Positions 22,952 through 39,523 of a stretch of DNA of 64,000 nt are shown piece by piece. Made by a program: the position numbers and the translations under genes. Where the stretch lies: assembly GCF_029869925.1 (NCBI RefSeq), contig NZ_CP118605.1, positions 2,490,501 through 2,554,500 of the forward strand, given 5' to 3'. The DNA is from Microbulbifer bruguierae. Lineage in GTDB: Bacteria > Pseudomonadota > Gammaproteobacteria > Pseudomonadales > Cellvibrionaceae. The notes under the pieces were generated by a model. The model saw only the letters and a program-made list of their open reading frames with translations. It made no database searches and was not told the origin of the DNA. Position 1 is the stretch's first letter, and the number at the start of each line of letters is the position of its first letter.

Positions 22952-22994
22952 CGCTTCCGACAACGCCAATAAATAAAACAAAAGGCAATTGAGA

Positions 22995-23711
22995 ATGCGG
23001 CTCTTCAGTTATAAACAGACCCACGATACAGGCTTTGCCCCCAATCCATTTGGCTTAACGCTGACACTGGCGACTTGTAAACCATTAATCCGTAAGCACA
23101 AGCATGTCGGAGACTGGATTGCAGGCTTTACTTCGATCGAGCTCTCGGGAACGGCGGTAGGCGAAGAACGATTGATTTACTTGATGCGAGTGGGAGAAAA
23201 GTTAGCCATTGCTGATTATTTCCACGACCCACGTTTTGCAGACAAAATCCCACAACTTGGTCGCAGGGGCGCCGAATACAAGGCAGGCGATAACATCTAT
23301 CGCCCCCTTGGGCCTGGAGCGGTATTACCGGAACAGTTCGAACAGCTGGAAAACCCCAATCATTGGGCGGGCAACGGCCCCAGCCAATTTGATTTACTAC
23401 GAGATCTCTCTGGTCGATCTGTATTGATCGCGGATGAATTTTACTATTTCGGCCGCAATGCAATCGCCCTACCCTTTGATGTAAGACCGGCGGTTCCACG
23501 AGGGCAGTCAGGTGCCGGCAAACTTTCCAGTGAAGCGCTGGCACAACGCTGCGTAGATTACATCCGCAAGCACTATAAGCCGGGACGACATGGAGTCCCC
23601 CATCAATGGCCCGAAGACACCAATAGCTGCGGTATAAAATCCTGCAGCGCGGCCAAGCCAGTCTCTCCACAAAAACCAAGAGCATCACGAGCGACATGCG
23701 GCTCATCTTAA
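22995..23711 (+). CDS. Nmad2-family putative nucleotide-modification protein
   Basis: A 238-residue protein. ATG 22995 is preferred over TTG 22989 because AAAGGC then sits at a proper distance. The N-terminus RLFSYKQTHDTGFAPNPFG, LTLATCKPLIRKHKHVGDW and IAGFTSIEL match what I know of nucleotide-modification-associated domain 2. The family was predicted from its linkage to restriction and base-modification genes; no biochemistry is known to me. Its 3' end overlaps the Nmad3 start by 16 bases. With mrr downstream the three genes form one operon. The last 45 residues (Ser/Pro/Lys-rich) look less conserved. Confidence 0.82.
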   Translation: MRLFSYKQTHDTGFAPNPFGLTLTLATCKPLIRKHKHVGDWIAGFTSIELSGTAVGEERLIYLMRVGEKLAIADYFHDPRFADKIPQLGRRGAEYKAGDNIYRPLGPGAVLPEQFEQLENPNHWAGNGPSQFDLLRDLSGRSVLIADEFYYFGRNAIALPFDVRPAVPRGQSGAGKLSSEALAQRCVDYIRKHYKPGRHGVPHQWPEDTNSCGIKSCSAAKPVSPQKPRASRATCGSS

Positions 23712-24550
23712 GCCGTAAGGGCTTCGACTCTTCCGCGGGCGGCTGCCCCAGCCCAATACTGCCCGACGGCCGTTTGTGCAGCCTGCCCATTCCCGATAAG
23801 CAGTCACCCTGGCGTTATTGCGATATCACTGTGAATGGAGAAAACGCGGGTAAACTGGTTACTGATTTAACCGGCGAGGCCAAGCGCGCCGGTCATTTCG
23901 CTCATATCGACCCGGATGTGGATCGCAGAGCGCTACCGCGCGATGCCAACTGGCGCGGTCTGCTGGGGCAGGACAGCACGGCACAGGCGCACCTGCGCAA
24001 CCAGGGGGTAACGGTCGGCGACCTGTTTCTGTTCTTTGGACTCTTCCGGCCCGTTGAAGACGCCGATGGCCGCTGGCAGTTTATAAAAGCCGAACCAGCC
24101 CGCCATATTATCTGGGGATGGTTACAGGTGGGCGCGGTGTATTCGGTGTCCAAGCTTGCTCCAGCGGCCCTACCCTGGGCGCGCTACCACCCCCATTTTT
24201 CCGGCGAGCGTGGCCCGCTCAATACCCTCTATGAAGCGAGCCAGGAACTATCGCTGCCCAATGGCAATCGGCCCGAAGTGAGCGGCTACGGCATCTTCAA
24301 CCACTACCAGCCAGCGCGACAGCTCAGCGCGCAAGAAAGTCGCAAACCGAGCCAGTGGCGCTTGCCCCAGGCTTTTTATCCACCCTCAATGGAAGCCGCG
24401 TTAACCTATCACCAGAAGCCGGAACGCTGGCAATTGGAAGAAAATCACTGCCGGTTAAATTCCGCGGCACGCGGACAAGAATTTGTATTGGATACCGAAA
24501 AGTACCCAGAGATACACCCGTGGCTAGCGTCACTATTTACCAACGAATAA
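23696..24550 (+). CDS. Nmad3-family putative nucleotide-modification protein
   Basis: A 284-residue protein starting at ATG 23696 inside the end of the Nmad2 gene. The N-terminus MRLILSRKGFDSSAGGCPSP and the following LCSLPIPDKQSP are the Nmad3 hallmark. Further conserved-looking blocks are HIDPDVDRRALPR, GVTVGDLFLFFGLFRPVE, HIIWGWLQVGAVY and a late FHN/F-x-P region around 200-250. The family is predicted to act in nucleic-acid modification. The mrr gene follows after 13 bases, so a shared transcript is likely. A role in marking host DNA or recognising marked phage DNA is inference. Confidence 0.82.
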   Translation: MRLILSRKGFDSSAGGCPSPILPDGRLCSLPIPDKQSPWRYCDITVNGENAGKLVTDLTGEAKRAGHFAHIDPDVDRRALPRDANWRGLLGQDSTAQAHLRNQGVTVGDLFLFFGLFRPVEDADGRWQFIKAEPARHIIWGWLQVGAVYSVSKLAPAALPWARYHPHFSGERGPLNTLYEASQELSLPNGNRPEVSGYGIFNHYQPARQLSAQESRKPSQWRLPQAFYPPSMEAALTYHQKPERWQLEENHCRLNSAARGQEFVLDTEKYPEIHPWLASLFTNE

Positions 24551-24563
24551 TCATCAATAGACT

Positions 24564-25502
24564 ATGACGATTCCAAAATACGATGAAATCATCCCCCATG
24601 CGCTGCGCTACCTAGCGGAGCATGGCGAGACCCGTTACCGCGATCTTGAACAACCGCTTGCTGCTTATTTCGGGCTCACACAGGAAGAGTTGGAAAAGCC
24701 CTACGCGTCTGGCAACGGCACCGTTTTCTTGGACCGTATCTCCTGGGCGCTGAGCTATCTCAATATGGCCAACCTGGTGGAAAAGCCGGGGCGCGGCATC
24801 TACAAGGCGGCGCCGGCCGCAGAGTCTTATCTTGAAGACGACATGGCGTTGCGCACCTTTGTACGGCAAAAGGCCGCGGAGCACACTGCGAGGAAGCAGC
24901 GCGAGCGCGAGCAAGGTGAAGTGAGCGACGCAGGCCCCATGCTTACCGAGTCGGCCGAGCACCTCACGCCGCTAGACACCCTCAACGCCGCCTTTGACGC
25001 CATCCGCACGGAAACACTGGAAAACATTCTGGATACCATCCTCTCCAAGTCACCCTATGAGCTGGAGAAGTTGGTGGTGAAGTTACTGGGACGTATGGGT
25101 TACGGCGGCCAGATCAAGGATTCCGGACAGGTCACCCAGGCGAGTAATGACGGCGGTATCGACGGCATTATCAAAGAGGACGTGCTCGGCTTTGGCCGCG
25201 TGCATATTCAAGTAAAACGCTACGCCCGTGATAACAGCGTGGGGCGTGAAGATATTCAGGGCTTTGTCGGCGCGCTGGCGGTGGCGCAATCTAACAAGGG
25301 CGTGTTTATTACCACGTCCCGATTCACTAGCGGTGCCAAGGAATATGCCCGCAGCCTTAACGGCAGCACTCATGTGGTGCTAATCGATGGGATGGAATTG
25401 GCCCGCTATATCTACGATTACGGGCTGGGCATGCAGGTGGAACAGGTGATCGAACTGAAAAAACTGGACGCCGATTTCTGGGATGAAATGAAAGACGCCT
25501 AA
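24564..25502 (+). CDS. mrr: Mrr-type restriction endonuclease
   Basis: A 312-residue protein. The N-terminal winged-helix Mrr_N domain (about 1-90) carries ALRYLAEHGETRYRDLEQPL and WALSYLNMANLVEKPGRGIY. A charged linker (about 100-130) leads to the PD-(D/E)xK catalytic domain: ELEKLVVKLLGRMGYGG (E169-type helix), NDGGIDGIIKED (D200) and VHIQVKRYA (Q216, K218). Mrr enzymes cut modified or foreign DNA. It closes the Nmad2-Nmad3-mrr operon and is convergent with hsdR, with a hairpin on its stop codon. All catalytic residues appear intact. Confidence 0.94.
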   Translation: MTIPKYDEIIPHALRYLAEHGETRYRDLEQPLAAYFGLTQEELEKPYASGNGTVFLDRISWALSYLNMANLVEKPGRGIYKAAPAAESYLEDDMALRTFVRQKAAEHTARKQREREQGEVSDAGPMLTESAEHLTPLDTLNAAFDAIRTETLENILDTILSKSPYELEKLVVKLLGRMGYGGQIKDSGQVTQASNDGGIDGIIKEDVLGFGRVHIQVKRYARDNSVGREDIQGFVGALAVAQSNKGVFITTSRFTSGAKEYARSLNGSTHVVLIDGMELARYIYDYGLGMQVEQVIELKKLDADFWDEMKDA

Positions 25503-25535: not shown

Positions 25536-28500
25536 TCAAATCGCTCCAGCGCGATCGCCCTGGTAGCGCTTGAAGTTCTCCGCCTGCTCGAAGATTTCCT
25601 TGTACACCTCATCGCGATCCACCGGCGGGTAGCCGTGTTTCGCCAGCACCAGAATCAGGCCGACCTTCAGTTCGGCCTTGATGTCGTCGCGCTGGCTCCA
25701 ATCGGTGTACTTGGACTTGTCATCCACCACGTCCTTCACCGCTTTGGATAACTCCAGCAGCTTTTCTTCCGGATAGCTGAAATCGTATTTGACCGCGAGC
25801 TTTTTCAGGATGTCGTAAAAGGCTTTCTCTTCCAGATCAATGCCGAGATCGCTGAAGGATTCTTTCTCCCGCTTGAGTGCCTGGATCAGGTCAATAATCT
25901 CATCGGAGAAATCTTCCAGCACCTCACTCACCAGCACATCGTCTTCCTTGCGCTCGTTGTAGTGATCCACCAGCTGGCGGAACTTCTCCGAGAAATCCAT
26001 GCCCTTGGTCTTGTTGATCTTCTTGAAATCCTCGATCGCCTTGGCCAACAGCTTCTGCAGCAATTTGATCTTGGTATTCGGCAGTTTGATTTTTTCGATC
26101 TTGGCCAGGTAGTCGTCGGCAAAGATATCCGTCTCGCCGGCGTCGTCTTCGCCCAGCTTGAAGATCTCCTCAACCCCGTCGGCCTTCAGCGCCTCGGCGA
26201 TCATCTCGCGCACGCGGGCATTCATCTGCGCCACATCCGGGGCATCGCCCTTGGTGAGCTTGAATACGATCGAGCGTACCGCCAGGTAAAAGTGAATCAG
26301 GTCGCGCTCAGCCTGGCTGACCGCTTCTGAGCCACAGCAGATGTCATAGGCGGCCTTGAGACGCTTCACCAGCGCCATAAAGCGCTTTTCTATCTTGTCG
26401 GTGAGCTGCACATACTCGGCGGCCATGTTCAGGCAGTTGAGCTGCTCCAGCGGGCTGCCGGTGAAGTAGGGCTTGCTGTCGAATTTGTGGAAAATCTTGT
26501 TCAGCAGGTCCAGGTGATCCTTGACCACGATCACCGACTGGGCGATCTCCTCGATATTCTGCTGGTCGGCCTTGTTGTAGTGGGCCAGGGCCAGGTTCAT
26601 CTGCTTCTTGATGCCAATGTAGTCCACCACCAGACCATTATCCTTGCCCTCGTACTTGCGGTTTACGCGGGAGATGGTCTGGATCAGGTTATGGCGCTGG
26701 ATGGGCTTGTCGATATAGATGGTATCCAGGAAGGGCACATCGAAGCCGGTGAGCCACATATCCACCACAATGGCGATCTTGAAGTTGGATTTGGGGTTCT
26801 TGAACTGGCGGTCCAGCTCCTTGCGGTACTCTTTGGTACCCAGCATCTCGTAGAGCGTATTGTCGTCGTCCTTGCCCCGGGTCATGATCATCTTGATCCG
26901 CGCCATGGGCTTGATCTCTTTGCGCTCCCTGTCGGTGAGCTCCACGCCCTCTTCCGCTGCCAGCACGGCATTCCACGCGGGCCGCAGCGCGATCACCTCT
27001 TGCCAGAAACGATAGGCGATCTCGCGGCTGCTGCACACGAACATCGCCTTGCCCTTGATGGTGGCGCCTTCTTGCAGGCGCTGCTCGTAGTGGTGCACGA
27101 AGTCGCTGGCCAGCGCCTTGATGCGATCCGGGTCGCCGAGGATCGCATTCATATTGGCGCTGGCCTTCTTGCTCTCCTCGATCTGGTAGTCGCTGGTGCC
27201 GGCTTCCGCGCACTCGGCGTAGTAGTCCTCGATCTCCTTGAGCTTGTCGTTGTCCAGCATCACCTTGGCGGCGCGGCCCTCGTAGACGATGCGCACGGTG
27301 ATCTCGTCCTTCACCGACTCGGTCATGGTGTAGCTGTCCACCACCTCGCCGAACACATCCAGGGTGGCGTCGATGGGGGTACCGGTGAAGCCTACATAGG
27401 TGGCGTTAGGCAGGGAGTCGTGCAGGTACTTGGCGAAGCCGTAGGTGCGCTTCACGCCCTTGTCGGTCACGCGCACCTTCTGGTCCAGGTTGATCTGGCT
27501 GCGGTGGGCCTCGTCACTGATACAGATCACATTGGCGCGCTCGGTCAGCAGCTCGGTGTCTTCGGTGAACTTGTGAATGGTGGTCAGGAACACCCCGCCG
27601 CTATTGCGGCCTTTCAGCAGTTGCCGCAGGTGTTCGCGGCTCTCCGCGCTCACCACATGCTGGTCGCCGATATAGCCCTTGGCGTTGGTGAACTGGCCGG
27701 AGAGCTGGTCATCCAAATCCGTGCGATCGGTAATCAGCACGATGGTGGGGCTGGCGAACTCCACGCTCTTCATCAACAGGCGCGTGAGGAACAGCATGGT
27801 GAAGCTCTTGCCGCAGCCGGTGGCGCCGAAGTAGGTGCCGCCCTTGCCGTCGCCGTCCGGTTTGCGGTGCCGCAGGATGTTCTGGTACAGCCGGGTGGCG
27901 GCGTAGAACTGCGGGTAGCGGCAGACGATCTTGTCTTCGCGCTTGGACACATCCGGGAAGTAGACAAAATGCCGGATCACCTCGCGCAGGCGCGCCTTGT
28001 CGAACAGCCCCTCGAGCATGGTGTGCAGCGCGTTGATGCCGTCCTGCTCGATGGTTTCGTCGCCGGTGACCTTGCGCCAGGTGTAGAAGAAATCGTAGGG
28101 CGCAAATAGCGAACCCATGCGTGAGTTGACGCCGTCACTGATCACGCACAGGGCGTTGTATTTCATCAGCTCGGGAATATCGCGCGCGTAGCGGGTGGTG
28201 AGCTGCTTCCAGGCATCATAGATGGTGGCGTTTTCGCGGATCGCGCTCTTGAATTCAAACACCACCAGCGGCAGGCCGTTGATATACAGGATGGCATCGG
28301 GAATGCGCTTTTCTCTCCCCTCGATTTCCAGCTGGTCAACGACCCGGTAGATATTGCGCTCACCGTAGCCGCGTAGCTTTTCCGCCACCAGCGTTTCCAC
28401 CTCGCCCTCGGCGGGCATGCGCTGCTCCGGCAGGCCCGCGTAGTCGATGAGCTGGATGTACAGGTCTTTTTGGCTGCGGTCTTCGCGCTTCAGCAGAAAG

Positions 28501-28766
28501 CCATCCGCGACGCGCTTGTGGATGGTCTTGTTGCTGTCGTACAGATCGGCGGCGGGCAGCCGTTCCAGTTCGGTGATGACCGCCTCGATTTCTACCGGGG
28601 TGATCTTGTCCTCGGCGTAACGCAGGCCGAGAAAGCGGCGCAGGTCGTCCTTGATCAACACCTCGCTGGGCGATCGCTGCAGCTGGCCACCCGGGGTATT
28701 GGGAAAACCCTGCCGGTCCAGCATGGCAATGATCGCCTGCTCCAATTTGGCCTCGGTAAAGCTCAT
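25536..28766 (-). CDS. hsdR: Type I restriction endonuclease subunit R
   Basis: About 1076 residues from ATG 28766. ATG 28772 is two codons longer but would put TAAGGCG only 2 bases from the start. The ribosome-binding site overlaps the stop of the DUF6933 gene, so hsdR is coupled to the embedded cluster. Numbered from 28772, the nuclease motif is PDAILYINGLPLVVFEFKS (D159, E173, K175). Walker A GATGCGKS is at 316-323, ISDEAHRSQ (DEAH) at 419-427, and GFTGTPID follows. The C-terminal HsdM-contact region is present. The motor translocates DNA and cuts unmethylated sites with HsdM/HsdS. Its N-terminus is matched by a diverged remnant at 36261-36515. Confidence 0.95.
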   Translation of the reverse strand: MSFTEAKLEQAIIAMLDRQGFPNTPGGQLQRSPSEVLIKDDLRRFLGLRYAEDKITPVEIEAVITELERLPAADLYDSNKTIHKRVADGFLLKREDRSQKDLYIQLIDYAGLPEQRMPAEGEVETLVAEKLRGYGERNIYRVVDQLEIEGREKRIPDAILYINGLPLVVFEFKSAIRENATIYDAWKQLTTRYARDIPELMKYNALCVISDGVNSRMGSLFAPYDFFYTWRKVTGDETIEQDGINALHTMLEGLFDKARLREVIRHFVYFPDVSKREDKIVCRYPQFYAATRLYQNILRHRKPDGDGKGGTYFGATGCGKSFTMLFLTRLLMKSVEFASPTIVLITDRTDLDDQLSGQFTNAKGYIGDQHVVSAESREHLRQLLKGRNSGGVFLTTIHKFTEDTELLTERANVICISDEAHRSQINLDQKVRVTDKGVKRTYGFAKYLHDSLPNATYVGFTGTPIDATLDVFGEVVDSYTMTESVKDEITVRIVYEGRAAKVMLDNDKLKEIEDYYAECAEAGTSDYQIEESKKASANMNAILGDPDRIKALASDFVHHYEQRLQEGATIKGKAMFVCSSREIAYRFWQEVIALRPAWNAVLAAEEGVELTDRERKEIKPMARIKMIMTRGKDDDNTLYEMLGTKEYRKELDRQFKNPKSNFKIAIVVDMWLTGFDVPFLDTIYIDKPIQRHNLIQTISRVNRKYEGKDNGLVVDYIGIKKQMNLALAHYNKADQQNIEEIAQSVIVVKDHLDLLNKIFHKFDSKPYFTGSPLEQLNCLNMAAEYVQLTDKIEKRFMALVKRLKAAYDICCGSEAVSQAERDLIHFYLAVRSIVFKLTKGDAPDVAQMNARVREMIAEALKADGVEEIFKLGEDDAGETDIFADDYLAKIEKIKLPNTKIKLLQKLLAKAIEDFKKINKTKGMDFSEKFRQLVDHYNERKEDDVLVSEVLEDFSDEIIDLIQALKREKESFSDLGIDLEEKAFYDILKKLAVKYDFSYPEEKLLELSKAVKDVVDDKSKYTDWSQRDDIKAELKVGLILVLAKHGYPPVDRDEVYKEIFEQAENFKRYQGDRAGAI

Positions 28767-28777
28767 TTCCATTCGCC

Positions 28778-29431
28778 TTATTTATTCTTTTTGCGAAATT
28801 CCAACAAGTTGACGATATTGCCCGGCAGTACGGTTTCCCGTTGTAGTACCGGCACAGGACTTTGTATTGCGCGGGGCAGCCCATCCAGCAATTGCAGAAA
28901 CGCTTTTACCGGCCAGACAGCGTTTTTGCGGCCTTTGACGGTGCACGGGCGGTCGGCCAGCCACGCCGCCAAACGGTGTCCGGTAATCTCGGCCACATGA
29001 ACACCATGGTGATATAGGCTGTATTCGGCATCCTGCGCCATCTGATTCATAGTGCCTTGCACCGAACGGTCACAGTCACTGTCGAAACTCAGCCGTGACA
29101 GGTGTGCTGCGACTGTATCCAGCTGCACCTGGCTGGCGTTGCATTTCAATAGAGTATTCATCAGCGCATCCCCAAACCACCAATCCAGCTCCGCGAGATC
29201 GGGCTTGGTCAGCGCCGGGATAAACAGGGGAAAACGGGTTTCATCGTGCACAAGCAGCACGCAGTTACGCCTCTGAATGGTCAAAAAATTCGCGTGCCAG
29301 CCGCTCAGGGGGCTGACATCAGCGCCCGCTGATTCCGCCAGGTGCTGGCTGCGGGGCAACAACGGTAAATGGCCATCATCGTCGATAATCAGCTTTGCCA
29401 GAAGTTTTTTAGTGCCATGGACGATGATCAT
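28778..29431 (-). CDS. DUF6933-like protein, last cargo gene
   Basis: A 217-residue protein. The N-terminal half matches the DUF6933 pattern: HGTKKLLAKLIID, then SGWHANFLTIQRRNCVLLVH and DETRFPLFIPALTKPDLAEL. The C-terminal half (DAEYSLYHHGVHVAEITGHR, LAAWLADRPC) ends in a short basic tail. Function is unknown; DUF6933 proteins are small cytoplasmic proteins usually found singly. ATG overlaps the glycosyltransferase stop by 4 bases and its own stop overlaps the hsdR ribosome-binding site, making it the link between cargo and restriction subunit. Confidence 0.78.
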   Translation of the reverse strand: MIIVHGTKKLLAKLIIDDDGHLPLLPRSQHLAESAGADVSPLSGWHANFLTIQRRNCVLLVHDETRFPLFIPALTKPDLAELDWWFGDALMNTLLKCNASQVQLDTVAAHLSRLSFDSDCDRSVQGTMNQMAQDAEYSLYHHGVHVAEITGHRLAAWLADRPCTVKGRKNAVWPVKAFLQLLDGLPRAIQSPVPVLQRETVLPGNIVNLLEFRKKNK

Positions 29432-31935
29432 ACGAACTCTGCGGCTTCAGCCGGTGTTATATCCGTTACGGAACCAACTGGGCGTGCGCCATTGATAACT
29501 GACCACAACTTATAACCATTTAGAGCATATATTGCACCACTGGATACCGCTCTGGCGAAAATTTGGTCGATTTGACGTATCTGAGACGCCACATCGTAGC
29601 TTCCGGTGATTTCCCTGACCTTTTCGATTTGCTCTAGCACTTTTCCGTTCAGATGATCAAGGCGAAAGTCTTCCAATGCCGTTTTCGCCACTTTTATGAC
29701 CTGGCTATGAAGATTTGCAGAATGGTTCATCAACCGCTCATTCTGCGTCAACAAATTGCATAGTTGGAGGATCAGCTGATCAGCCCGGAGGTGGTTAATG
29801 GTAATCCTCTCCAGGTAGTCTTCCACCATTCGGGAAAACCGGTCCTGAATGCTCCGCTTACTGGAAAACTTCCCATCGCAGAATTCTTCAAACACTCGGT
29901 AAAAACACAAGCCAATTATATCGTCCGCCAATTTTGTCGCACTGATTTCACCAGGGCCATTCTGCATCCTTCGATGGTGGCGCAGGGGGAGAGAGACCTC
30001 TTCGATCTTGACCCCCATGTTTTTTACCATATGAATTGCCGTTATAAAATCGCTGCGCCTAACCTGCGTCGATACTTCACCCCGGTCGATTGTTGGTGAT
30101 AGATTGGGAGCTTCGACAAGCAGTGACAAATTTCGATACAACGCTATACCGCCACGCCTGTGGCTGTTACGGCCAGTGTTAGCGTTCCAGGCTTCTGCTG
30201 ACGCCAGTAGAGGCCGGGTAATATTCGCCTGCTCATTTAGATATTGAATATCCGTGAGAAACGCACTAAAAATCTCTGCGACTTTATGCCCATCCGACAA
30301 CGATACTGGCTGCCACGCAACTGGTCGCTCAAGGTGATCATAACGGGCAGAGGAAAAATCGTAGTAATAATCATCCCCACCGCTCACCTCTTTGAGCGAG
30401 CGAACATTCGAAGCGTAATTTGTGTCGGGATCAAGACGAACGAAATTTAGCAGTGAATAGTAAAGGTCCAGCAACTGTGTACGCAATGAACTGTAGAACG
30501 GCAGGGCCGGCGCATCCGAATAGGGCGACACAATAATATCTGCATCGCAATTTTTAATTAGCCAGCTGAGCTTACCAAGAAAATTTAATTTTTTACTTTC
30601 TAGAGCACCATTCTCTATGCTTAGGGATTCGAACTGTAGATCATCATCGAGAATTAATACCCTGCAGTCCGGCCCTTGTGATTTCGCTTCTTCCCAGCAA
30701 AAAAAATGAAGCAGACTTCTAGAGAACGCTATTGATTTCCGACTAATTGCGTTGAGCTCAAACACCGAGTGGTAAGGAAAACGAGAATAATGCCTTTTCT
30801 GTTCAGCAAGATCTAAAATACGAACAGAGAAATTTTTCGGAGAAACTGCCTGCAAGGCAAATTTGATTGCCTCTTCACGATCACCATTGGTCAACAATAA
30901 ATAATGACACTGGCCGACGAACTTCGGCTCTTGCTGAATTTGTCGTTCCAGGGAGGATAGCTGGTTTTTGACGTTGCGTGCACAAGACGAGGCCACACCA
31001 ATCACTAACTTTACCGGCGGTTCATCTTCATAGGTTCGGTAGTGCGCAACGTCATGGGCGGTTTCTTTAACACTCTGCCTTCGGTAGCCAAATAGGCGTT
31101 CAGCCCGCTTTAGCGAGGCTTCGTGGATCGACGTATCCATACGTGATGCGTATTTATCATAGAAAAGGTCCAGCCCCTTGTGCTTGCCCGCCTGACACCG
31201 AGTGACCCGCTCACCAGTGTGCGCATGGTGACGGAGCAACGGTCGCGTATTGACCAGAATATTCTGGCCACGTGACTCACTGACTTCCAGAATACGAATC
31301 GCGAAGTCCCGATCCTGGGTGCTGGGCATGGATTCGTCATATCCACCAGCCCGCCAAAAAGTTTCAGCATCAATGAATGTGTTACTGCCCTGCCAACCGG
31401 GGTTGCCAATAAAAAATTCATCCAGCGTCAAATGTTCTGGCAGCAGGTGGATGGGTCGGTCCTGGCCAAATTCGTAACGGTGAAATGCGGAGACCACAGC
31501 CACAGCATAGAAATCCTCCTCGGCCAACCGCTGACAGCAGCTGGCCAGGTACTGGGGATACCATTCATCATCGTCATCGAGAATAGCGAAATAGAGCGGA
31601 TTGTCAGCAGGGCGATTTTGCCAGGCTGCCATAGCACCGCTATTCCAGGCGCCACTGCCTGAACGCCCCCGTGTTCGTGAATTTCGGATTACCTCGGTTT
31701 TGTACCAGTGGTCCGGCACGCCGTGCGGGAATTTTGTCGAAAAGAATGTGTCCCGGAGCCTTTTTACCCGCCGCCTAATCGACAGATATTCCTCCTGGCA
31801 AGCATTATCATCTACGACATAGATACGCCAAGGAATCACATTTTCCTGTGCATACACCGATCTAAGCGACCGCTCAATCAACAAATCAGTACGCCGCATT
31901 GAAGTTGCGATAATCACGGCAATGGATACGCTCAT
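29428..31935 (-). CDS. Two-domain GT-A glycosyltransferase
   Basis: An 835-residue protein, much longer than a simple family-2 glycosyltransferase. Domain 1 (about 1-260) is GT2: IAVIIATSMRRTDLLIERSL at 5-24, YVVDDN at 39-44, FAILDDDDEWYPQYL at 116-130 (the metal-binding DxD), and an N-terminal-to-acceptor region with STQDRDFAIRILE. A second GT-A-like domain begins near 308 (KLVIGVASSCARNVKNQLSS) with its own acidic motif VLILDDDLQFE at 426-436. The last 250 residues are helical with coiled-coil-like stretches. No membrane helix is seen. It overlaps both neighbours by 4 bases. Donor and acceptor are unknown. Codon composition is AT-richer than the genes around it. Confidence 0.82.
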   Translation of the reverse strand: MSVSIAVIIATSMRRTDLLIERSLRSVYAQENVIPWRIYVVDDNACQEEYLSIRRRVKRLRDTFFSTKFPHGVPDHWYKTEVIRNSRTRGRSGSGAWNSGAMAAWQNRPADNPLYFAILDDDDEWYPQYLASCCQRLAEEDFYAVAVVSAFHRYEFGQDRPIHLLPEHLTLDEFFIGNPGWQGSNTFIDAETFWRAGGYDESMPSTQDRDFAIRILEVSESRGQNILVNTRPLLRHHAHTGERVTRCQAGKHKGLDLFYDKYASRMDTSIHEASLKRAERLFGYRRQSVKETAHDVAHYRTYEDEPPVKLVIGVASSCARNVKNQLSSLERQIQQEPKFVGQCHYLLLTNGDREEAIKFALQAVSPKNFSVRILDLAEQKRHYSRFPYHSVFELNAISRKSIAFSRSLLHFFCWEEAKSQGPDCRVLILDDDLQFESLSIENGALESKKLNFLGKLSWLIKNCDADIIVSPYSDAPALPFYSSLRTQLLDLYYSLLNFVRLDPDTNYASNVRSLKEVSGGDDYYYDFSSARYDHLERPVAWQPVSLSDGHKVAEIFSAFLTDIQYLNEQANITRPLLASAEAWNANTGRNSHRRGGIALYRNLSLLVEAPNLSPTIDRGEVSTQVRRSDFITAIHMVKNMGVKIEEVSLPLRHHRRMQNGPGEISATKLADDIIGLCFYRVFEEFCDGKFSSKRSIQDRFSRMVEDYLERITINHLRADQLILQLCNLLTQNERLMNHSANLHSQVIKVAKTALEDFRLDHLNGKVLEQIEKVREITGSYDVASQIRQIDQIFARAVSSGAIYALNGYKLWSVINGARPVGSVTDITPAEAAEFV

Positions 31936-32660
31936 AATGCATGCTCCACGTTCCCACGCACAGATCCCAGCCTACCTTCCGATAGCCCGCAATCATCCAA
32001 ATCCAGGCCAAAATAGTTGCGCAACGCTGACAACTGACTGGAGAGGCTCGTGAAGCGGAGACTACGCGTCGCCTTATGATCGGAGAAAATTCGCAATTCA
32101 TCCCCTTTAAGAAACAGAAATTTGTCACCAATAACCTGGGCATATCTCAGCCCGGCACTGAACGGATAGTTCATCTCCCCGCTAAAGCGCCGTGCAATTG
32201 CCGTGATTACCGCCGATTCCGGCTCCAGCCTTAGCGGTATACTCTGCGACAGGGTTTCGCTCCCCGGCTTGAGTTGATATACATCCAGGAACGCATCGCG
32301 GAGCCGAGTTTGAAATACAATGCCGAAAGCCCGATAGCGAACTTCTCGAGCCGCGGGAAACAGGCGAATACTCGGCCAAGCGTTGCCAACATCTGCGTAA
32401 TAGACGCCGTCATCCAGCTCCAAGGCCAGCACACGATGGCACAACTGATGATTTATCCACGCATTATGCAGCCTTGCACTGACACCAGCGCTCTGTAGCC
32501 GTGCCTGGAACGCCAGCACCTTGTCGGAGCAGGTCCCCCCTTCGAGCGCGCAAGAAGGGCCGCATAACCCCAAATAAAGGAGATTGTGGAAAGGCGTGGC
32601 CCGAAACTCGTCCAGCATCAGTTGTTCGATTTCATGAATTGAAAGAGCGCCCTTGTTCAT
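31932..32660 (-). CDS. Arylamine N-acetyltransferase-like protein
   Basis: A 242-residue protein with the NAT fold pattern. TPFHNLLYL (22-30) stands for the usual IPFENL. GGTCSDKVLAFQARLQSAG carries the nucleophile C44. CHRVLALELDDG gives H75 and YYADVGNAW gives D90, completing a Cys-His-Asp triad. The C-terminal part (MNYPFSAGLRYAQVIGDKFL) also fits. NATs transfer acyl groups from CoA to amines; relatives such as RifF close amide bonds in natural products. It overlaps both adjacent genes by 4 bases. Substrate unknown. The triad resembles transglutaminase proteases, but the strand order and flanking motifs favour NAT. Confidence 0.8.
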   Translation of the reverse strand: MNKGALSIHEIEQLMLDEFRATPFHNLLYLGLCGPSCALEGGTCSDKVLAFQARLQSAGVSARLHNAWINHQLCHRVLALELDDGVYYADVGNAWPSIRLFPAAREVRYRAFGIVFQTRLRDAFLDVYQLKPGSETLSQSIPLRLEPESAVITAIARRFSGEMNYPFSAGLRYAQVIGDKFLFLKGDELRIFSDHKATRSLRFTSLSSQLSALRNYFGLDLDDCGLSEGRLGSVRGNVEHAL

Positions 32661-34174
32661 TTGTGATCCACCCCGCGCCGATCGATGAGTTCGTCAAAAA
32701 CGGGGTAGGCGGAAAAATAGGGATGGGTTTCAAAATTCCGGCCATCGAAACTCGCCAAAAAGTGGTGGCGCCAGATTAGGCGCAGAGCTTCCCGTTCCGT
32801 GCAACCGTTCCTGCGCAGGTGCCGAACCACCAATGCGCGCATACCGCTACCGACATCACACGAGGTTTTGCGGCGCAAAACTATCTGCTCTGGCAACAGC
32901 TCTTTGACGGCTTCACGCAATACAATTTTATTGTTACGGCTGTCCTCACTCCGTCGATAGAGGTCGTCATAGTCCAGCGCTAATGCCCAGTTATAGAGGT
33001 CGCGATCGAGAAATGGACAACGCGTCTCTATGGCATGGGCCATACCGGTTAGGTCAATGCGGCGAAGCTCGGTACTGCGCAAGTTAGCCAGCAACTGTTC
33101 ACGAGTTTCCCGCCAGGGATCGGTATTGCGGTAGTGATGATAGCCACCAAACAATTCATCGGCCCCTTCGCCCGACAGAACCACCTTCAAACCATCTTCG
33201 CGCGCGGCCTCTGCGAGCAGGTAAGTACAGAGGCCATTGCTGATAACGGAAGGGTTGTAACTTTCGGCGACGTAGACCAGCTGGTGAATTAGCTGTGACA
33301 GCGCATTACCAGTCGGAAGGGTCAAGTAGCGCACGTTCGTAAGCTTGAGGTGATCGACCAATAGCCGCGCGTGGTCATGGTCCGCAGCGCCCGGTGCACT
33401 CAGGCAATAATAGCGTGCGTCGGGACGTCGGTGATGAACGAGAGCCGCGATCGCTGAACTATCCAGCCCTCCACTCAGAAAGACACCGACGGGCTCACCA
33501 GCTGCCGGCAGGCGCTTTTCAACAGCCAAGGCCAGCAAAGTACGCAGCGCGCTGGCTTTGCTATTGGAGGCCGGTGATTGCGGACTTGGAAGGTTTGTTT
33601 TCGCCTCGCACTCCGGCTCCATTGCGGAGAGATTTGTGCAGTGACCGTTTTCAAGATTGATTTCACTCACGCCGGATGGCAACGCCGTAAAATCATCGAC
33701 GCGGTCAAGCGCCTTCAATTCGCTGGTGATAAACCGTTCCGAGCCGGAGCGACCCCAAAATAGCGGCTTTTTGCCCATGGCATCGCGCAATACAAGCAGG
33801 CGCTGCGCACGCTCGTCTACCACGACTCCGGCAAAAAAACCGTCCAGGTTTTCCAGGGCTGCCACGCCCAGCTTATCCAGCATGGCCGGCACCACATGGC
33901 AGTCGTTGCTCGACGCGAGCTTCAGCTGGTAGCGCTCGCGTAACTCGGCCGCGTTATAGATTTCGCCATTGATCGCCGCGACATAACTGCCGGAGCGGTA
34001 GGGCTGCTGTCCGGCAGGAGATTTATCATTGATCGCCAGCCTGGCAAATCCCAGGCTCAGTGCACCGCTGTGCCAGTGGTACTGGGCATCGGGGCCGCGG
34101 TGGGCAATGCGTTGCAGGCACGCCGGAAGTCGTTCGGCTGCACGAGGACCATGCAGTAATACTAGGCCGCACAT
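32657..34174 (-). CDS. Asparagine-synthetase-like amidotransferase
   Basis: A 505-residue protein. I set the start at ATG 34174 because the mature enzyme needs Cys at position 2 (MCGLVLLHGP); a GTG 11 codons earlier would block that nucleophile. The glutaminase domain has AHRGPDAQYHW (24-34), FARLAIND and NGEIYNA (69-75). The synthetase domain has the PPi-loop SGGLDSS (234-240) and LSGEGADELFGGYHHY (333-348). Both half-reactions appear possible: glutamine-derived ammonia and ATP activation of a carboxylate. Housekeeping AsnB makes asparagine, but relatives build amide bonds in lasso peptides and other products. Its tight embedding with NAT- and M20-like genes suggests a dedicated substrate (inference). 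Confidence 0.87.
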   Translation of the reverse strand: MCGLVLLHGPRAAERLPACLQRIAHRGPDAQYHWHSGALSLGFARLAINDKSPAGQQPYRSGSYVAAINGEIYNAAELRERYQLKLASSNDCHVVPAMLDKLGVAALENLDGFFAGVVVDERAQRLLVLRDAMGKKPLFWGRSGSERFITSELKALDRVDDFTALPSGVSEINLENGHCTNLSAMEPECEAKTNLPSPQSPASNSKASALRTLLALAVEKRLPAAGEPVGVFLSGGLDSSAIAALVHHRRPDARYYCLSAPGAADHDHARLLVDHLKLTNVRYLTLPTGNALSQLIHQLVYVAESYNPSVISNGLCTYLLAEAAREDGLKVVLSGEGADELFGGYHHYRNTDPWRETREQLLANLRSTELRRIDLTGMAHAIETRCPFLDRDLYNWALALDYDDLYRRSEDSRNNKIVLREAVKELLPEQIVLRRKTSCDVGSGMRALVVRHLRRNGCTEREALRLIWRHHFLASFDGRNFETHPYFSAYPVFDELIDRRGVDHK

Positions 34175-35004
34175 GGTGCCTCTACTTGTGCGACTCGATG
34201 CCTGCACCAGGTCAAAAAGCGGTCGAACAACGGGAAATATTGTTCCAGCAATTCCACACTGATGGATTCATTGTCGCGGTGTATACGTGCCGAGTAATCG
34301 TTGGGTCCAAATCCCAGATAGAGGCTGCCATCGGGCAGGTTTTCGATCAGTGGGCAGGGGCCGAATTTAGACAGGGTGCGGGTCTCTATGCGCGCTTTGC
34401 CATCGAACAACACACTGTTGAGCGAACAGGCCAATGTCTCGCGCTCGCTAGCGGATAGCGCTGCGCCGTGCTGGAATATGAGTGGCGCACCATCGCGATA
34501 GTAGCCGGTCTCCTCCACGCACAGGCAGTTTTTCAAAGGGGCCAGTTCCGCCGGAAATAACGCGTGGGCCAGGGGCGCACCGACTTCCTCTTCGCCCTGA
34601 ATCAGCCAGAGCATATTGGGTAACGCCTCTCCTCGCGCGATGCGGGCCTCGATCACCGAAAGCCTGGCCAGCAGTACCGCCTTGTTGTCGGCAACGCCGC
34701 GCCCCCACAGGCGGCCATCCCGCTGCGTCAATTGAAACGGCGGCGAGTGCCAATCCTCCTGCGGCCGTATCCGCTCCACGTCATAATGGTTGTACAGGAT
34801 CAGGGGCGCCCCATCGGAATCCCCAAACCTTGCCACCAGCAACGGCTGATCAGTGCGCGCCACTCCCTTTACTTGCACATCAAACCCCAGCCGCAGCAGG
34901 CGCATGCGCAGATAATGCACGGCGGCGCGATTGGCCTGTTCGTCGCCGGCAACGGTGGGCAGTGCGACAAAATCGGTTAACTCATCCAGGTACGGCGTCA
35001 GCAC
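34162..35004 (-). CDS. Compact M20-family metallohydrolase lacking the lid domain
   Basis: A 280-residue protein; M20 peptidases usually have about 400 or more. Metal ligands are kept: YNHYDVERIRPQEDW (H73, catalytic D75), GRGVADNKAV (D106), QGEEEVGAP (catalytic E138 and metal E139), a likely E164/E165 in VEETGYY, and GFGPNDYSARIHRDNESI (H242). The dimerisation/lid domain that normally sits between the last two ligand groups is reduced to about 60 residues (175-235). M20 enzymes hydrolyse amide bonds of peptides, acyl amino acids and related compounds. The 3' end overlaps the amidotransferase start by 13 bases; the 5' end overlaps the SLOG-kinase gene by 23 bases. Confidence 0.83.
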   Translation of the reverse strand: MLTPYLDELTDFVALPTVAGDEQANRAAVHYLRMRLLRLGFDVQVKGVARTDQPLLVARFGDSDGAPLILYNHYDVERIRPQEDWHSPPFQLTQRDGRLWGRGVADNKAVLLARLSVIEARIARGEALPNMLWLIQGEEEVGAPLAHALFPAELAPLKNCLCVEETGYYRDGAPLIFQHGAALSASERETLACSLNSVLFDGKARIETRTLSKFGPCPLIENLPDGSLYLGFGPNDYSARIHRDNESISVELLEQYFPLFDRFLTWCRHRVAQVEAPCAA

Positions 35005-36211
35005 GGGTTACCTCTGCGTAAAACTGATCAAACCGGCTCGCCAGTTCTGATGCGCTGTGCGCAACACCCTCGCAGGCGGCAATACCGTCAAAATCATCGT
35101 GGTCATTGGTGTAGCGACACATACGCTTGAAATCCGCATGCGCGCTGTAATACACGGTCAGAAACGCGCGTTTACACATGCTGAGAAACAGTGCATGGCT
35201 ATACGGCATCAAATCGCGGCCGATATCGATGCACACCAAGCGATTGTCGTCAGTGCAGCGAAAGTTCTCCGCCTTCACATTGCTCAGACAACAGCCAGCG
35301 GCACGCATGGCGCGCAGGAAAGCCACCATCGGCTGCCTCTGGCCGCCCGTGTAGGCGTGCGAGGCAAAGTCCGGGTAGTGGACAACCAGATAATCTCCCA
35401 GATGCACTTCGAACAACGGTACCGGGGCAACGGTCGCCTGAGACTGTACAAGGGTCTGCGCGATGCCGCTCAGGTGCGTAAACAGCAGTATGGTGAAATC
35501 GGTAGGATGGAAAATCTTGCAGATGCGCTGACCGCATCGAAACACCGTGCCCTCGGAGCCATACCCGAGAAGTTCTGGCGCACCGATGTTCCGGGCATCG
35601 GCAAACGTGGCCTGCAGGTAATCGCGCTGTTCCGCCTGCTTAACCGCGCTGGCCGCTATCCCCCGATAAGCCGGCAGGTTGCGGCCGTGCAGGTGCCGTA
35701 AAAAGCGACTTAACGCGTCCATATCCGGGCATAGGGCGATGGCTTCCTCGCGGCGCTCGTCCAGCGCCAATGTTTGCAGGCGGGTATGCCAGCCCTCGCC
35801 GCCCACACAGGCTATGGGTTTGCGCATCTGCCAGGCGAGTGCAATCTCGGACAGCGTGCCGGAACCACCATCCAGGGCAATGACGCCATCACAGGCTGCC
35901 ATCAATACCGCATTGCGCGCAACGCCCAAGCCGGTGGGCAGTGCGATATCGATGTAGGGATTGGCTTCGGCTTTGTTGTAGGAAGGCAGTACGCCGATCA
36001 CGTCGCCGGGCTGGTGCCGGGCCGAGCTGCGGGCCCCGCGCGCCGCCTGCTCCATTACGCCGCCCATGCCGCCACTGATCAGCCGGTAACCGCTGTCGAT
36101 CAGCAGCTTGCCCACGTCAAAAGCGAGCATCCGCTGTACCTCGCTCAGCTGATTGCTGGCCGACCCCACCACGGCGATCTGCATGCGCTGATTACGACTC
36201 AAATTATCCAT
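34982..36211 (-). CDS. SLOG (TIGR00725-type) and kinase-like fusion, first cargo gene
   Basis: A 409-residue fusion. The N-terminal SLOG domain (about 8-175) shows IAVVGSAS, LISGGMGGVMEQAARGA (44-60), ANPYIDIALPTGLGVARN and LDGGSGTLSEIAL (113-125), as in the TIGR00725 branch of LOG-like nucleotide-binding proteins. The C-terminal part (about 205-400) looks like a protein-kinase/phosphotransferase fold: LLGYGSEGTVF (214-224, glycine loop), CKIF (K232), LSNVKAENF (309-317) in place of the catalytic loop, and CIDIGRDL (D329) in place of DFG. The usual catalytic Asp is Asn311, so it may be a pseudokinase. It starts 4 bases after a relic hsdS stop codon. Confidence 0.77.
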   Translation of the reverse strand: MDNLSRNQRMQIAVVGSASNQLSEVQRMLAFDVGKLLIDSGYRLISGGMGGVMEQAARGARSSARHQPGDVIGVLPSYNKAEANPYIDIALPTGLGVARNAVLMAACDGVIALDGGSGTLSEIALAWQMRKPIACVGGEGWHTRLQTLALDERREEAIALCPDMDALSRFLRHLHGRNLPAYRGIAASAVKQAEQRDYLQATFADARNIGAPELLGYGSEGTVFRCGQRICKIFHPTDFTILLFTHLSGIAQTLVQSQATVAPVPLFEVHLGDYLVVHYPDFASHAYTGGQRQPMVAFLRAMRAAGCCLSNVKAENFRCTDDNRLVCIDIGRDLMPYSHALFLSMCKRAFLTVYYSAHADFKRMCRYTNDHDDFDGIAACEGVAHSASELASRFDQFYAEVTRADAVPG

Positions 36212-36248: not shown

Positions 36249-36305
36249 ATAAATACATTTTTAATGAATTGATTGTGATGACTGGTTAAAACCAGTGGTG
36301 GGCAG
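36249..36305. other. Recombination junction between hsdR' and hsdS' relics
   Basis: An AT-rich filler (36249-36280) followed by the palindrome ACTGGTT-AA-AACCAGT (36281-36296). Similarity to hsdS ends on one side and similarity to hsdR ends on the other at about 36300. No insertion sequence, integrase or target-site duplication is visible. Confidence 0.55.
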
Positions 36306-36515
36306 CCGTTCCAGTTCGGTGATCACCGCCTCGATTTCCGCGGGGGTGATCTTGTCCTCGGCGTAGCGCCCGGCGAGAAAGCGGCGCAGGTCGTCCTTGA
36401 TCAATACCTCGGTGGGCGCACGTTGCAACTGGCCGCCGGGCGTGTTCGGAAAGCCCCGCTGTTCCAGAAGGGCAATGATCGCTTTCTCCAACTTTTCTTC
36501 CGTGAATTTGGACAT
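36261..36515 (-). pseudogene. hsdR: 5' remnant of an hsdR gene
   Basis: An 84-codon frame whose first 70 residues align with the start of the full HsdR at about four identical residues in five (shared blocks GFPNTPGGQLQR, EVLIKDDLRRFL and EIEAVITELERLP). After ERLP the similarity stops and the frame soon ends. It starts 4 bases after the hsdS stop, where hsdR normally begins. The divergence shows it is not a recent copy of the intact hsdR. It is too short to hold the nuclease or motor domains, so it is a relic. Confidence 0.85.
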
Positions 36516-36519
36516 AGGC

Positions 36520-37906
36520 TTATATCACCTCGGCAAGCTGGTGTTCGGCTTCGGGGACTTGAAGCTGGCCAGAAAGCAATTTTGGAAGCAAAGAATCCCG
36601 AAGTGCAGTTAGAGTCATTACATTTGAGTTGCGACCGAAAATACTTTTAGTAAAGGGAGATACATTTTTTTCGAACTGGAAAAGAATTTGTTCACCCGGA
36701 TTTAACGTTGGAACCGACTCAATATGACCTTTTGTCACCGCTTCTCTAGATGCGCCCGCATTTTGGCCCATCAGGTAGCTCTTAGTTTTTCCATTTAAGA
36801 GATGAAGATGCAGATACTTGGAGGGAACCCCAGTAATGGGCCTAACAATTGCAACGTGCTGATTAACCCTTGCCGGCAGAGCATCGGGGGTAACGATACA
36901 AGTTCTCAAAATAGAAGCACCAGTTATATTGAGAAGGACATCGCCTTCTTCTAGAGTAACTCCTTTAAGCTGCTTTGCTGCTTCATTATTGATATGAGCT
37001 AATCCATCCCAGGTAAATTCGGAGTCATATACATTCTGGCTTCGAATTAAAGATACACCGTCTTTTACGTATACTTGGCTACCACCTCGAGGGGTAGAAC
37101 CACTACCAATTTTTGAAGTCAGAGAGCGTAGCGAAACGACCTCCCATGCTTCTGGCACCCAGCCCATTTCTTCAGAAAATACAAAACTGCTGGGAAACAG
37201 CCGCTGAATCTCGGCCGGCAGGGGCTGCGCGGAGGTGCTGGCGCCGCTGCGCATTTCTTGTCTGGCGCGCGCTCTGGCTTGCAGGGCGTCGGGGATGGGA
37301 TTGCCGGCGGCCAGGGCGTTGTCGATAACCGGATCAAAATCCATAAACCAGCTTTTAAACAGCGCCTGGGCCATGGACTCCAGGGTGGAATTGATTTGGC
37401 GATTGAGCTCGATTTTGTCATCGAGAGCTGCGAGTATTTGGGCAATAGCTTTCTGCTCTCCTAGCGGAGGGAACGGAAAAATTAAATCCAATAAATTGCC
37501 CACTTTTATACTTGGCTGTGCAGCGCCAATATTTAGGTTCATCAGGGATGGGCGATTCAACTTAAGCAGGTAATAAAGGTATTTATTGTCGTGTTCTTCA
37601 TTACAACGCAATCCAATTGTGTTCTGAATTATTACACACCTACAACTTGGGGTAATGCCGACTTGACCATATCCGTTGCCGACCAGCGTAACTAACACAT
37701 CGTCTTCTTTAATATGCTTTCTGATAAACGAGTTGTATGTATCCTCATCAATAAATCTGCGAACATCATTTATGTTGATTCGCCAATCACTAGTGATCAA
37801 ATAGTTATCTATAACTGGTATCCCTGTTTCAGCATATGCCTTAGGGTTCTTGCCTCGGTTATCAGCTACGAACTCGACGACATCACCCAGTCGGAGTTCC
37901 TGCCAC

Positions 37907-37917
<11 letters not shown>
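36520..37917 (-). CDS. hsdS: Type I restriction-modification specificity subunit
   Basis: A 465-residue protein with two target-recognition domains: TRD1 at about 5-150 and TRD2 at about 255-410. The central conserved helix region is PPLGEQKAIAQILAALDDKI and the following NRQINSTLESMAQALFKSWF. The distal repeat ends TLTALRDSLLPKLLSGQLQV. It sets the bipartite DNA target for both methylation and cutting. The TRD-coding parts are visibly AT-richer than the conserved helices, as expected for domains exchanged between strains. It overlaps hsdM by 11 bases. Target sequence cannot be predicted by eye. Confidence 0.94.

Positions 37918-39523
<1,606 letters not shown>

Follow-up and report, generated by a model that had tools for sequence, protein, structure and literature searches.

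The bacterial immune systems known so far act mostly by cutting, degrading or poisoning, and only a few produce a small molecule for defence. Among those found in type I restriction-modification (hsd) loci, PrrC and RloC are anticodon nucleases that serve as a second line of defence. The toxin-antitoxin pair DarTG2 is described as embedded between hsdS and hsdR in an RRDM island, and the available part of the same paper proposes a recombining slot for type I operons that carry DarTG2 and other gene pairs (PMC12255303). For the enzyme families that matter below, the available text describes LOG-like SLOG and NADAR domains as ribosyl N-glycosidases, with some SLOG clades being enzymes and others non-catalytic nucleotide sensors (PMC9503650), and COG3236/NADAR proteins together with GTP cyclohydrolase II (GCH2) as a control of riboflavin overflow (cited in PMC9503650 and PMC11543638). 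Here, we investigated a stretch of 64,000 nucleotides (the window) from the single-contig, 4.48-Mb genome of Microbulbifer bruguierae, in which six open reading frames (ORFs), g1 to g6, are found between hsdS and hsdR, all on the minus strand (Table 1), exactly where the original prediction had placed them.

The locus shares with PrrC and RloC the location inside a type I operon and with DarTG2 the exact slot between hsdS and hsdR, so the position itself is not new but already described (PMC12255303). Its content is different: DarTG2 is a toxin-antitoxin pair, whereas g1 to g5 are five biosynthetic enzymes, and the six window proteins gave no Pfam match to DarT or DarG (macro or NADAR) and none to an anticodon nuclease or an ABC-ATPase up to E 0.1. 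We propose that g1-g5 form a mobile biosynthetic module which became lodged in the hsdS-hsdR slot, is expressed with hsdR and acts as an immune system by making an intracellular small molecule, and we put the probability of this reading at slightly under one half. We infer every reaction, the product, the co-expression and the antiviral role from sequence. Those relatives of the module that carry an AsnB-like amidotransferase and an arylamine-N-acetyltransferase (NAT)-like enzyme appear to behave like defence cargo, in that they are mobile, sporadic, placed in the hsd slot or often near defence genes, and under selection.

By gene order and conservation, g1-g5 constitute one operon. The order hsdM-hsdS-g1-g2-g3-g4-g5-hsdR was found in 6/6 genomes whose surroundings were read, namely M. 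bruguierae itself, G061, the uncultured Microbulbifer G066 (L002), Thalassolituus marinus (L003/G792), G830, whose contig starts within hsdM and stops within hsdR, and G835; the concern that the genes might occur together only in this genome thus falls away for g1-g5. Further close relatives of the glycosyltransferase (GT), e.g., in Pokkaliibacter, lie outside the six read in context. The G061 cargo occupies the same chromosomal site as that of M. bruguierae (a judgement by eye, based on the neighbouring oxidoreductase and Mrr-like genes), and the GT gene overlaps hsdR in all three copies from the Thalassolituus family. Within the window, as predicted, the ORFs overlap at every junction: by 23 nt (g1/g2), by 13 nt (g2/g3, with the g3 ATG of Met-Cys-Gly at 34174; 46 nt with the listed GTG at 34207) and by 4 nt each at g3/g4, g4/g5 and g5/g6. 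The g6 stop region reads TAAGGCGA and is followed by the hsdR ATG at a gap of 5 nt, with AAGG on the stop codon, which agrees with the earlier claim that the g6 stop carries the hsdR ribosome-binding site. Because of these overlaps, g1-g6 would be transcribed together with hsdR. Promoter-like and terminator-like sites between 28600 and 40000 were at chance (8 observed vs 8.0 expected, and 11 vs 11.8, respectively).

The cargo has also been maintained. Between M. bruguierae and G061 the cargo proteins are 66-76% identical, while hsdM and hsdR stand at 95% and 94%; across the Microbulbifer genomes compared, hsdM identity is 92-96%. The ratio of nonsynonymous to synonymous polymorphism (pN/pS) of the cargo is 0.22-0.31 in three Microbulbifer pairs, which points to purifying selection. 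A tree of the concatenated cargo pairs M. bruguierae with G066 and sets G061 apart (ultrafast bootstrap 100), and the single-gene cargo trees return the same grouping (98, 91, 97, 66 and 95, the weak value of 66 being that of g4). In the hsdR tree, M. bruguierae instead clusters with G061 and G011 and separately from G066 (94), and the hsdM tree joins M. bruguierae and G061 weakly (74). This conflict, together with the low pN/pS, argues that the cargo has been selected and has a history unlike that of hsdR.

The sixth gene does not share this history, and here the original prediction of a six-gene unit has to be narrowed: five genes are conserved together, and g6 (DUF6933) is a separate passenger. 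As a pathway member it was rejected, since neither of the other two Microbulbifer genomes with the cargo has it. DUF6933 occurs in 5/48 genomes of the genus (M. bruguierae counted), and at the four other loci, one of them a 5-kb contig, no gene matches the window hsdM, hsdS or hsdR. Two relatives of this family (PDC-S63; L133 5908-6453 and L134 5669-6220, 61-64% identity) lie in the neighbourhood of a Schlafen group 3 helicase and of a cytosine-5 methylase, with no match to the window hsd genes in the stretch.

The slot itself bears marks of exchange. Absent from the first account of the locus, an 84-codon hsdR stub (REase_I, 1.2e-10) lies between hsdS and g1 and begins 4 nt past hsdS, the same spacing as that of the intact hsdR in the empty site of the congener G011. 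Compared with the first part of hsdR in G011 it shows 79% identity, and compared with the resident hsdR 74%, and is therefore no fresh duplication; it looks like the relic of another hsdR allele. A truncated SLFN_AlbA_2 gene takes the place of the stub in G066, and a DUF6933 remnant lies beside hsdR in G835 (L143). The hsdR type of the window is present in 6/48 genomes of the genus (M. bruguierae included), three with cargo and three with hsdR 4-24 nt after hsdS. Because of the stub, the truncated SLFN_AlbA_2 gene, the DUF6933 remnant and the cargo-free sites, the hsdS-hsdR slot is best read as recombining. The stub, the truncated gene, the remnant and the discordant trees would equally suit metabolic cargo that has no immune role and was trapped by hitch-hiking in a recombination-prone slot, as would the fact that most of 16 sister loci have no individually named defence gene; we give this little credence, since the cargo ORFs are intact and under purifying selection, the cargo overlaps hsdR in the three Thalassolituus-family copies, and sister forms lie independently near several kinds of defence genes. 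The hsdS start is nearly the same in M. bruguierae and G066 (L002 3938-5323; 606 bits), and the hsdS genes of G061 and G011 differ from it (213 and 245 bits), an exchange of specificity domains that adjoins the cargo slot.

Profile matches bear out the identities that had been assigned to the parts, with NAT just under its cut-off. The SLOG part of g1 matches LDcluster4 (6.8e-35) and TIGR00725 (116.8 bits, above the cut-off of 106.9) and scores 28.7 bits against the cytokinin LOG enzyme model NF058542, far under the cut-off of 300; it differs from LOG, TIGR00725 and Moco-carrier SLOG proteins in being fused to a kinase-like domain. In that domain the aspartate position of the HRD motif is Asn in the window (Asn in 27/36 and Asp in 9/36 sequences) and a DFG-like Asp is invariant, so that, with the usual catalytic Asp replaced, it does not qualify as an active protein kinase. 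The 280-aa g2 matches the catalytic-domain model of M20 alone (2e-15), its likely metal ligands being invariant across 7 sequences. For g3 (Asn_synthase, 1.3e-51; TIGR01536, 279.5 bits, above the cut-off of 267.1), the N-terminal Cys and the motif SGGLDSS are invariant across 18 sequences, and its substrate may differ from that of the glutamine-hydrolysing asparagine synthase modelled by TIGR01536. The NAT model PF00797 gives g4 20.9 bits, slightly under the Pfam cut-off of 22.8, and the g4 family profile matches solved NATs (best 4.2e-4); Cys44, His75 and Asp90, which we take to be the Cys-His-Asp triad of NATs, are invariant across 22 sequences. GT2 matches g5 at 8.7e-10, and g6 matches DUF6933 (8.7e-44) and the PADLOC profile PDC-S63 (1.5e-77). 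None of g1-g5 strongly matched a PADLOC 2.0.0 model: g1 gave weak SLOG matches to PsyrA (2.9e-4) and ShosA (0.012), and g2-g5 gave no match up to E 0.1. In line with the earlier statement that the composition has no described precedent, no description of the combined parts, or of DUF6933/PDC-S63, was found in the literature searched, which included no preprints, few subscription papers and, for broader queries, the top results.

The module is one form of a wider family. With an alignment of the GT, the best 80 of 202 relatives in species genomes were taken as loci, along with 14 from viral contigs, and architectures were derived with iterated domain hidden Markov models (HMMs) on 95 loci. One domain set recurs across these in many fusion orders. 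Type I, as in the window, consists of SLOG-KIN, M20, AsnB, NAT and GTa-GTb (KIN, kinase-like domain; GTa and GTb, the two GT heads), and type II of GTa-KIN-GTb, GCH2-NADAR, AsnB and NAT, with hosts such as Psychrobacter, Vibrio furnissii, Shewanella, Sandaracinus and an Alteromonadaceae bin, among others. Type III combines SLOG-KIN-MT (MT, methyltransferase) and GTa-GTb with a UDP-glucose dehydrogenase (L008) or an epimerase (L007) in Helicobacter-like bacteria, Bacteroidetes, a spirochaete and one archaeal bin, and type IV comprises giant GTa-GTb-KIN-MT proteins plus SLOG, e.g., in Planctomycetes, Rhodobacteraceae and three contigs called viral. In the Bacteroidetes bins L011 and L012, GCH2-NADAR-KIN forms one chain and AsnB-NAT another (AsnB-NAT-GTa-GTb in L011); Kordia (L035) has GTa-GTb-KIN, M20 and AsnB-NAT; and P0049 holds AsnB-NAT-GTa-GTb in a single chain of 1460 aa. 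These natural fusions, together with SLOG-KIN, GTa-KIN-GTb, GTa-GTb-KIN, AsnB-NAT and GCH2-NADAR-KIN, are the strongest evidence that the enzymes belong to one pathway, as had been predicted. The HMMs did not detect KIN in the AsnB/NAT loci L015 (a Poseidoniales bin) and L017. The family is thinly spread: the GT is present in 3/48 genomes of the genus (M. bruguierae counted) and the module in 5/390 of the order (own or seed genome counted), the 44 genomes of the Thalassolituus family hold three type I and two type II loci, and type II occurs in 6/315 genomes of the V. furnissii family and 1/152 of the family of the Shewanella (seed genomes counted).

SLOG and GCH2-NADAR substitute for each other between loci, and as LOG-like SLOG and NADAR domains are both described as ribosyl N-glycosidases, the exchange suggests that the two forms of the route begin in the same way, at a nucleotide. 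The sister systems resemble COG3236/NADAR-GCH2 proteins in the GCH2-NADAR fusion, to which they add GTs, AsnB and NAT; the window has SLOG instead. In the proposed route, the LOG-like SLOG domain (GCH2 and NADAR in the sisters) would cleave a nucleotide at its N-glycosidic bond and leave a free heteroaromatic amine. The AsnB-like enzyme, with glutamine and ATP, would then amidate a carboxylate or join a carboxylate to the freed amine, after which the NAT-like enzyme would acylate an aromatic amine, the M20 enzyme would trim an amide and the two GT-A heads would attach two sugars. The kinase-like domain, lacking the usual catalytic Asp, would bind ATP and control or scaffold the assembly. We assign the NAT step to the freed base because aromatic amines are the substrates of NAT enzymes and the expected product of GCH2 and NADAR, a triaminopyrimidinone, is such an amine. 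The product itself might hinder phage or serve as an internal signal; we take the metabolite to be the agent because the module has no evident effector or exporter.

Some of the same parts would fit a Dpd-like hypermodification of nucleic acid, in which a GTP-derived base is amidated, glycosylated and put into DNA or RNA as a partner of restriction-modification. GTP cyclohydrolase II, NADAR, an amidotransferase and GTs suit a base-modification route, NADARs reverse guanine ADP-ribosylation (as given in the available parts of PMC11543638 and PMC11125620), and the operon is adjoined, beyond hsdR, by genes for Nmad2 and Nmad3 (nucleotide modification associated domains) and then an Mrr restriction endonuclease. 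Of all readings we believe this one least, because neither a base-inserting transglycosylase (DpdA) nor another base-inserting enzyme is among the six genes (the rest of the genome was not searched) and HsdM already marks self DNA. With Nmad2, Nmad3 and Mrr beside hsdR, the window locus is, by gene content, a small defence/modification island in itself.

Surface glycan synthesis is the main rival to an immune metabolite, given that glycosaminoglycans are what the nearest two-headed enzymes produce and that type III includes a UDP-glucose dehydrogenase. The GT-A heads would then build or cap a short glycan that AsnB and NAT decorate, the kinase and methyltransferase of sister forms would act like WbdD, and phage would be affected through a changed receptor. 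The likeness of g5 to the polymerases K4CP and PmHS2 lies in two GT-A heads on one chain; identity is 12-15%, and sister systems have the kinase-like domain between the heads. The nucleoside 3'-O-glycosyltransferase AvpGT is 18% identical to g5 and tied with WrtF within 1 Z; because of this tie the substrate specificity of g5 cannot be inferred, and the likeness to AvpGT was not used as proof of a nucleoside acceptor. A glycan pathway leaves SLOG and GCH2-NADAR unexplained, and neither the hsd slot nor the sister loci with defence genes around them are envelope loci. Among the top 25 of 137 flank families (138 genes, 17 sister loci; export genes elsewhere not searched) there was no recurrent flippase, polymerase or ligase. 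On balance we consider this explanation unlikely.

Several sister loci lie beside or near defence genes. Among type II, L144 adjoins DruE3 and DruH3 (Druantia III), L145 (4353-9309, with its GT broken at 363 aa) adjoins DdmD with an integrase near, and L017 adjoins a type I HsdR; L043 has a type I REase, TOTE and McrBC in its vicinity, L154 a primase-helicase of TOTE and a Cap4 nuclease, and L032 WYL, with GmrSD_N 7 kb off. Individually named defence genes thus accompany 6/16 pooled type II loci. Pooled flanks of the 16 loci (107 genes, 41,363 aa) matched 47 PADLOC families at 1e-40, the first 25 of which include DdmD (2 genes), LmuB (2), REase_I, Druantia, PDC-M16, MkoB and PrimPol, whereas flanks of 14 type III/IV loci (113 genes, 41,366 aa) matched 3, all AbiEi. 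These sets (A7 and A8; genes <150 or >1400 aa excluded) were made after a mixed set of both locus kinds (A5), which excluded genes <120 or >1300 aa and, for its size, L014, one of 18 loci, and which gave 51 families at 1e-10 (138 genes, 17 loci); AriA, PD-T4-4, PD-T4-2 and mad3 are among them, with the matching loci not assignable. The pooled results are given as the first 25 families without the matching member, and several contigs end inside the flank. The defence linkage that had been predicted therefore stands for part of the AsnB/NAT relatives that lack SLOG and is not general: the 14 loci of the methyltransferase types gave AbiEi alone at 1e-40, and the whole family as a defence system was rejected on that account.

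Production of a secondary metabolite, an antibiotic or a signal for competitors whose genes merely travel on defence islands, would account for such neighbourhoods too. We hold it decidedly unlikely, given that no exporter, self-resistance or regulator gene is found by Pfam among the six window genes and that the cargo lies between hsdS and hsdR in 6/6 copies read.

A mobilizable Pseudoalteromonas plasmid carries, immediately behind traC, a complete four-gene GCH2-NADAR system with all domains, including NADAR and the kinase-like one (L158 14028-20550; NZ_CP032092.1 116683-123205), and the plasmid search returned 3 weak matches of the window GT and 2 matches of the type II GT, one nearly full length. 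Integrases are the only such neighbours of the type II loci L120 and L153. Three IMG/VR contigs called viral carry the giant methyltransferase type (L082-L084). Phage-borne copies of the module were not borne out: neither the window GT nor a GCH2-NADAR-type GT had a match in 50,697 phage records, and viral contigs contained no NAT relative.

A number of points weigh against an immune role. A search with g4 among 369 genomes of the class matched its own genome alone, which makes the module rare, and no sensor or toxin is evident in it. As some SLOG clades are non-catalytic, the nucleotide-cleavage step may be wrong. The GT heads and the kinase-like domain also occur in glycan-like settings, where UDP-glucose dehydrogenase or epimerase accompanies methyltransferase types. 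No defence gene was individually named in 10/16 type II loci (two with integrases), and some of these loci are related (two Psychrobacter, and five Vibrionaceae besides L040). The pooled counts are of families rather than genes, and several models can match one gene; PADLOC models favour well-studied taxa, and the control set has another taxonomy, more metagenome bins and more spurious high-GC ORFs.

If the immune reading holds, the pathway may produce an antiviral small molecule of a new kind. We tentatively entertain, while leaning against it, the bolder claim of a new immune class, in which a mobile, modular pathway converts a cellular nucleotide to an anti-phage metabolite that is glycosylated twice and acylated or amidated, with a swappable nucleotide-cleaving entry (SLOG or GCH2-NADAR) and a pseudokinase-like scaffold, and in which the SLOG/M20 form, placed between hsdS and hsdR in the six copies with flanks read, backs up restriction as a second line. 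Should it have no immune role, it is still an apparently undescribed biosynthetic pathway, widely scattered among bacteria and archaeal bins, whose chemistry on nucleotides and sugars may be new. The compact operon, the defined alternatives, the fusions, the empty site and the plasmid-borne four-gene sister make the question readily testable.

Table 1. Features of the hsd locus and its neighbours, in positions of the window
Feature	Position	Strand	Remark
hsdM, type I methyltransferase	37907..39523	-	TIGR00497 179.7 bits, under cut-off 242.75
hsdS, specificity subunit	36520..37917	-	
hsdR stub, 84 codons, second divergent hsdR 5' end; marker of an insertion/recombination junction	36261..36515	-	
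g1, SLOG (LDcluster4/TIGR00725) fused to protein-kinase-like domain	34982..36211	-	
g2, M20-family hydrolase without lid domain	34162..35004	-	
g3, AsnB-like glutamine amidotransferase, start set at Met-Cys-Gly	32657..34174	-	listed ORF start 34207
g4, arylamine-N-acetyltransferase-like acyltransferase	31932..32660	-	
g5, GT-A glycosyltransferase with two heads, at roughly 4-288 and 307-684	29428..31935	-	
g6, DUF6933, PADLOC candidate PDC-S63, passenger	28778..29431	-	
g6 stop codon with overlapping ribosome-binding-like AAGG before hsdR	28773..28780	-	
hsdR, type I restriction subunit	25536..28772	-	TIGR00348 461.6 bits, cut-off 284.55
Nmad3	24564..25502	+	1.7e-79
Nmad2	22989..24550	+	1.5e-47

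Two further groups of relatives were observed. Nine loci (L013, L016, L018, L020, L024, L036, L054, L056 and L063) have GTa-GTa or GTa-KIN-GTa arrangements with the same kinase-like domain, and the HMMs used here did not detect SLOG, AsnB or NAT in them. In Helicobacter bilis (L025 6506-12198), a methyltransferase-type system has its GT split in two ORFs and is flanked, by eye, by flagellin-like and fliA/fliM-like genes; two members of the pooled flanks match FliMN_C.

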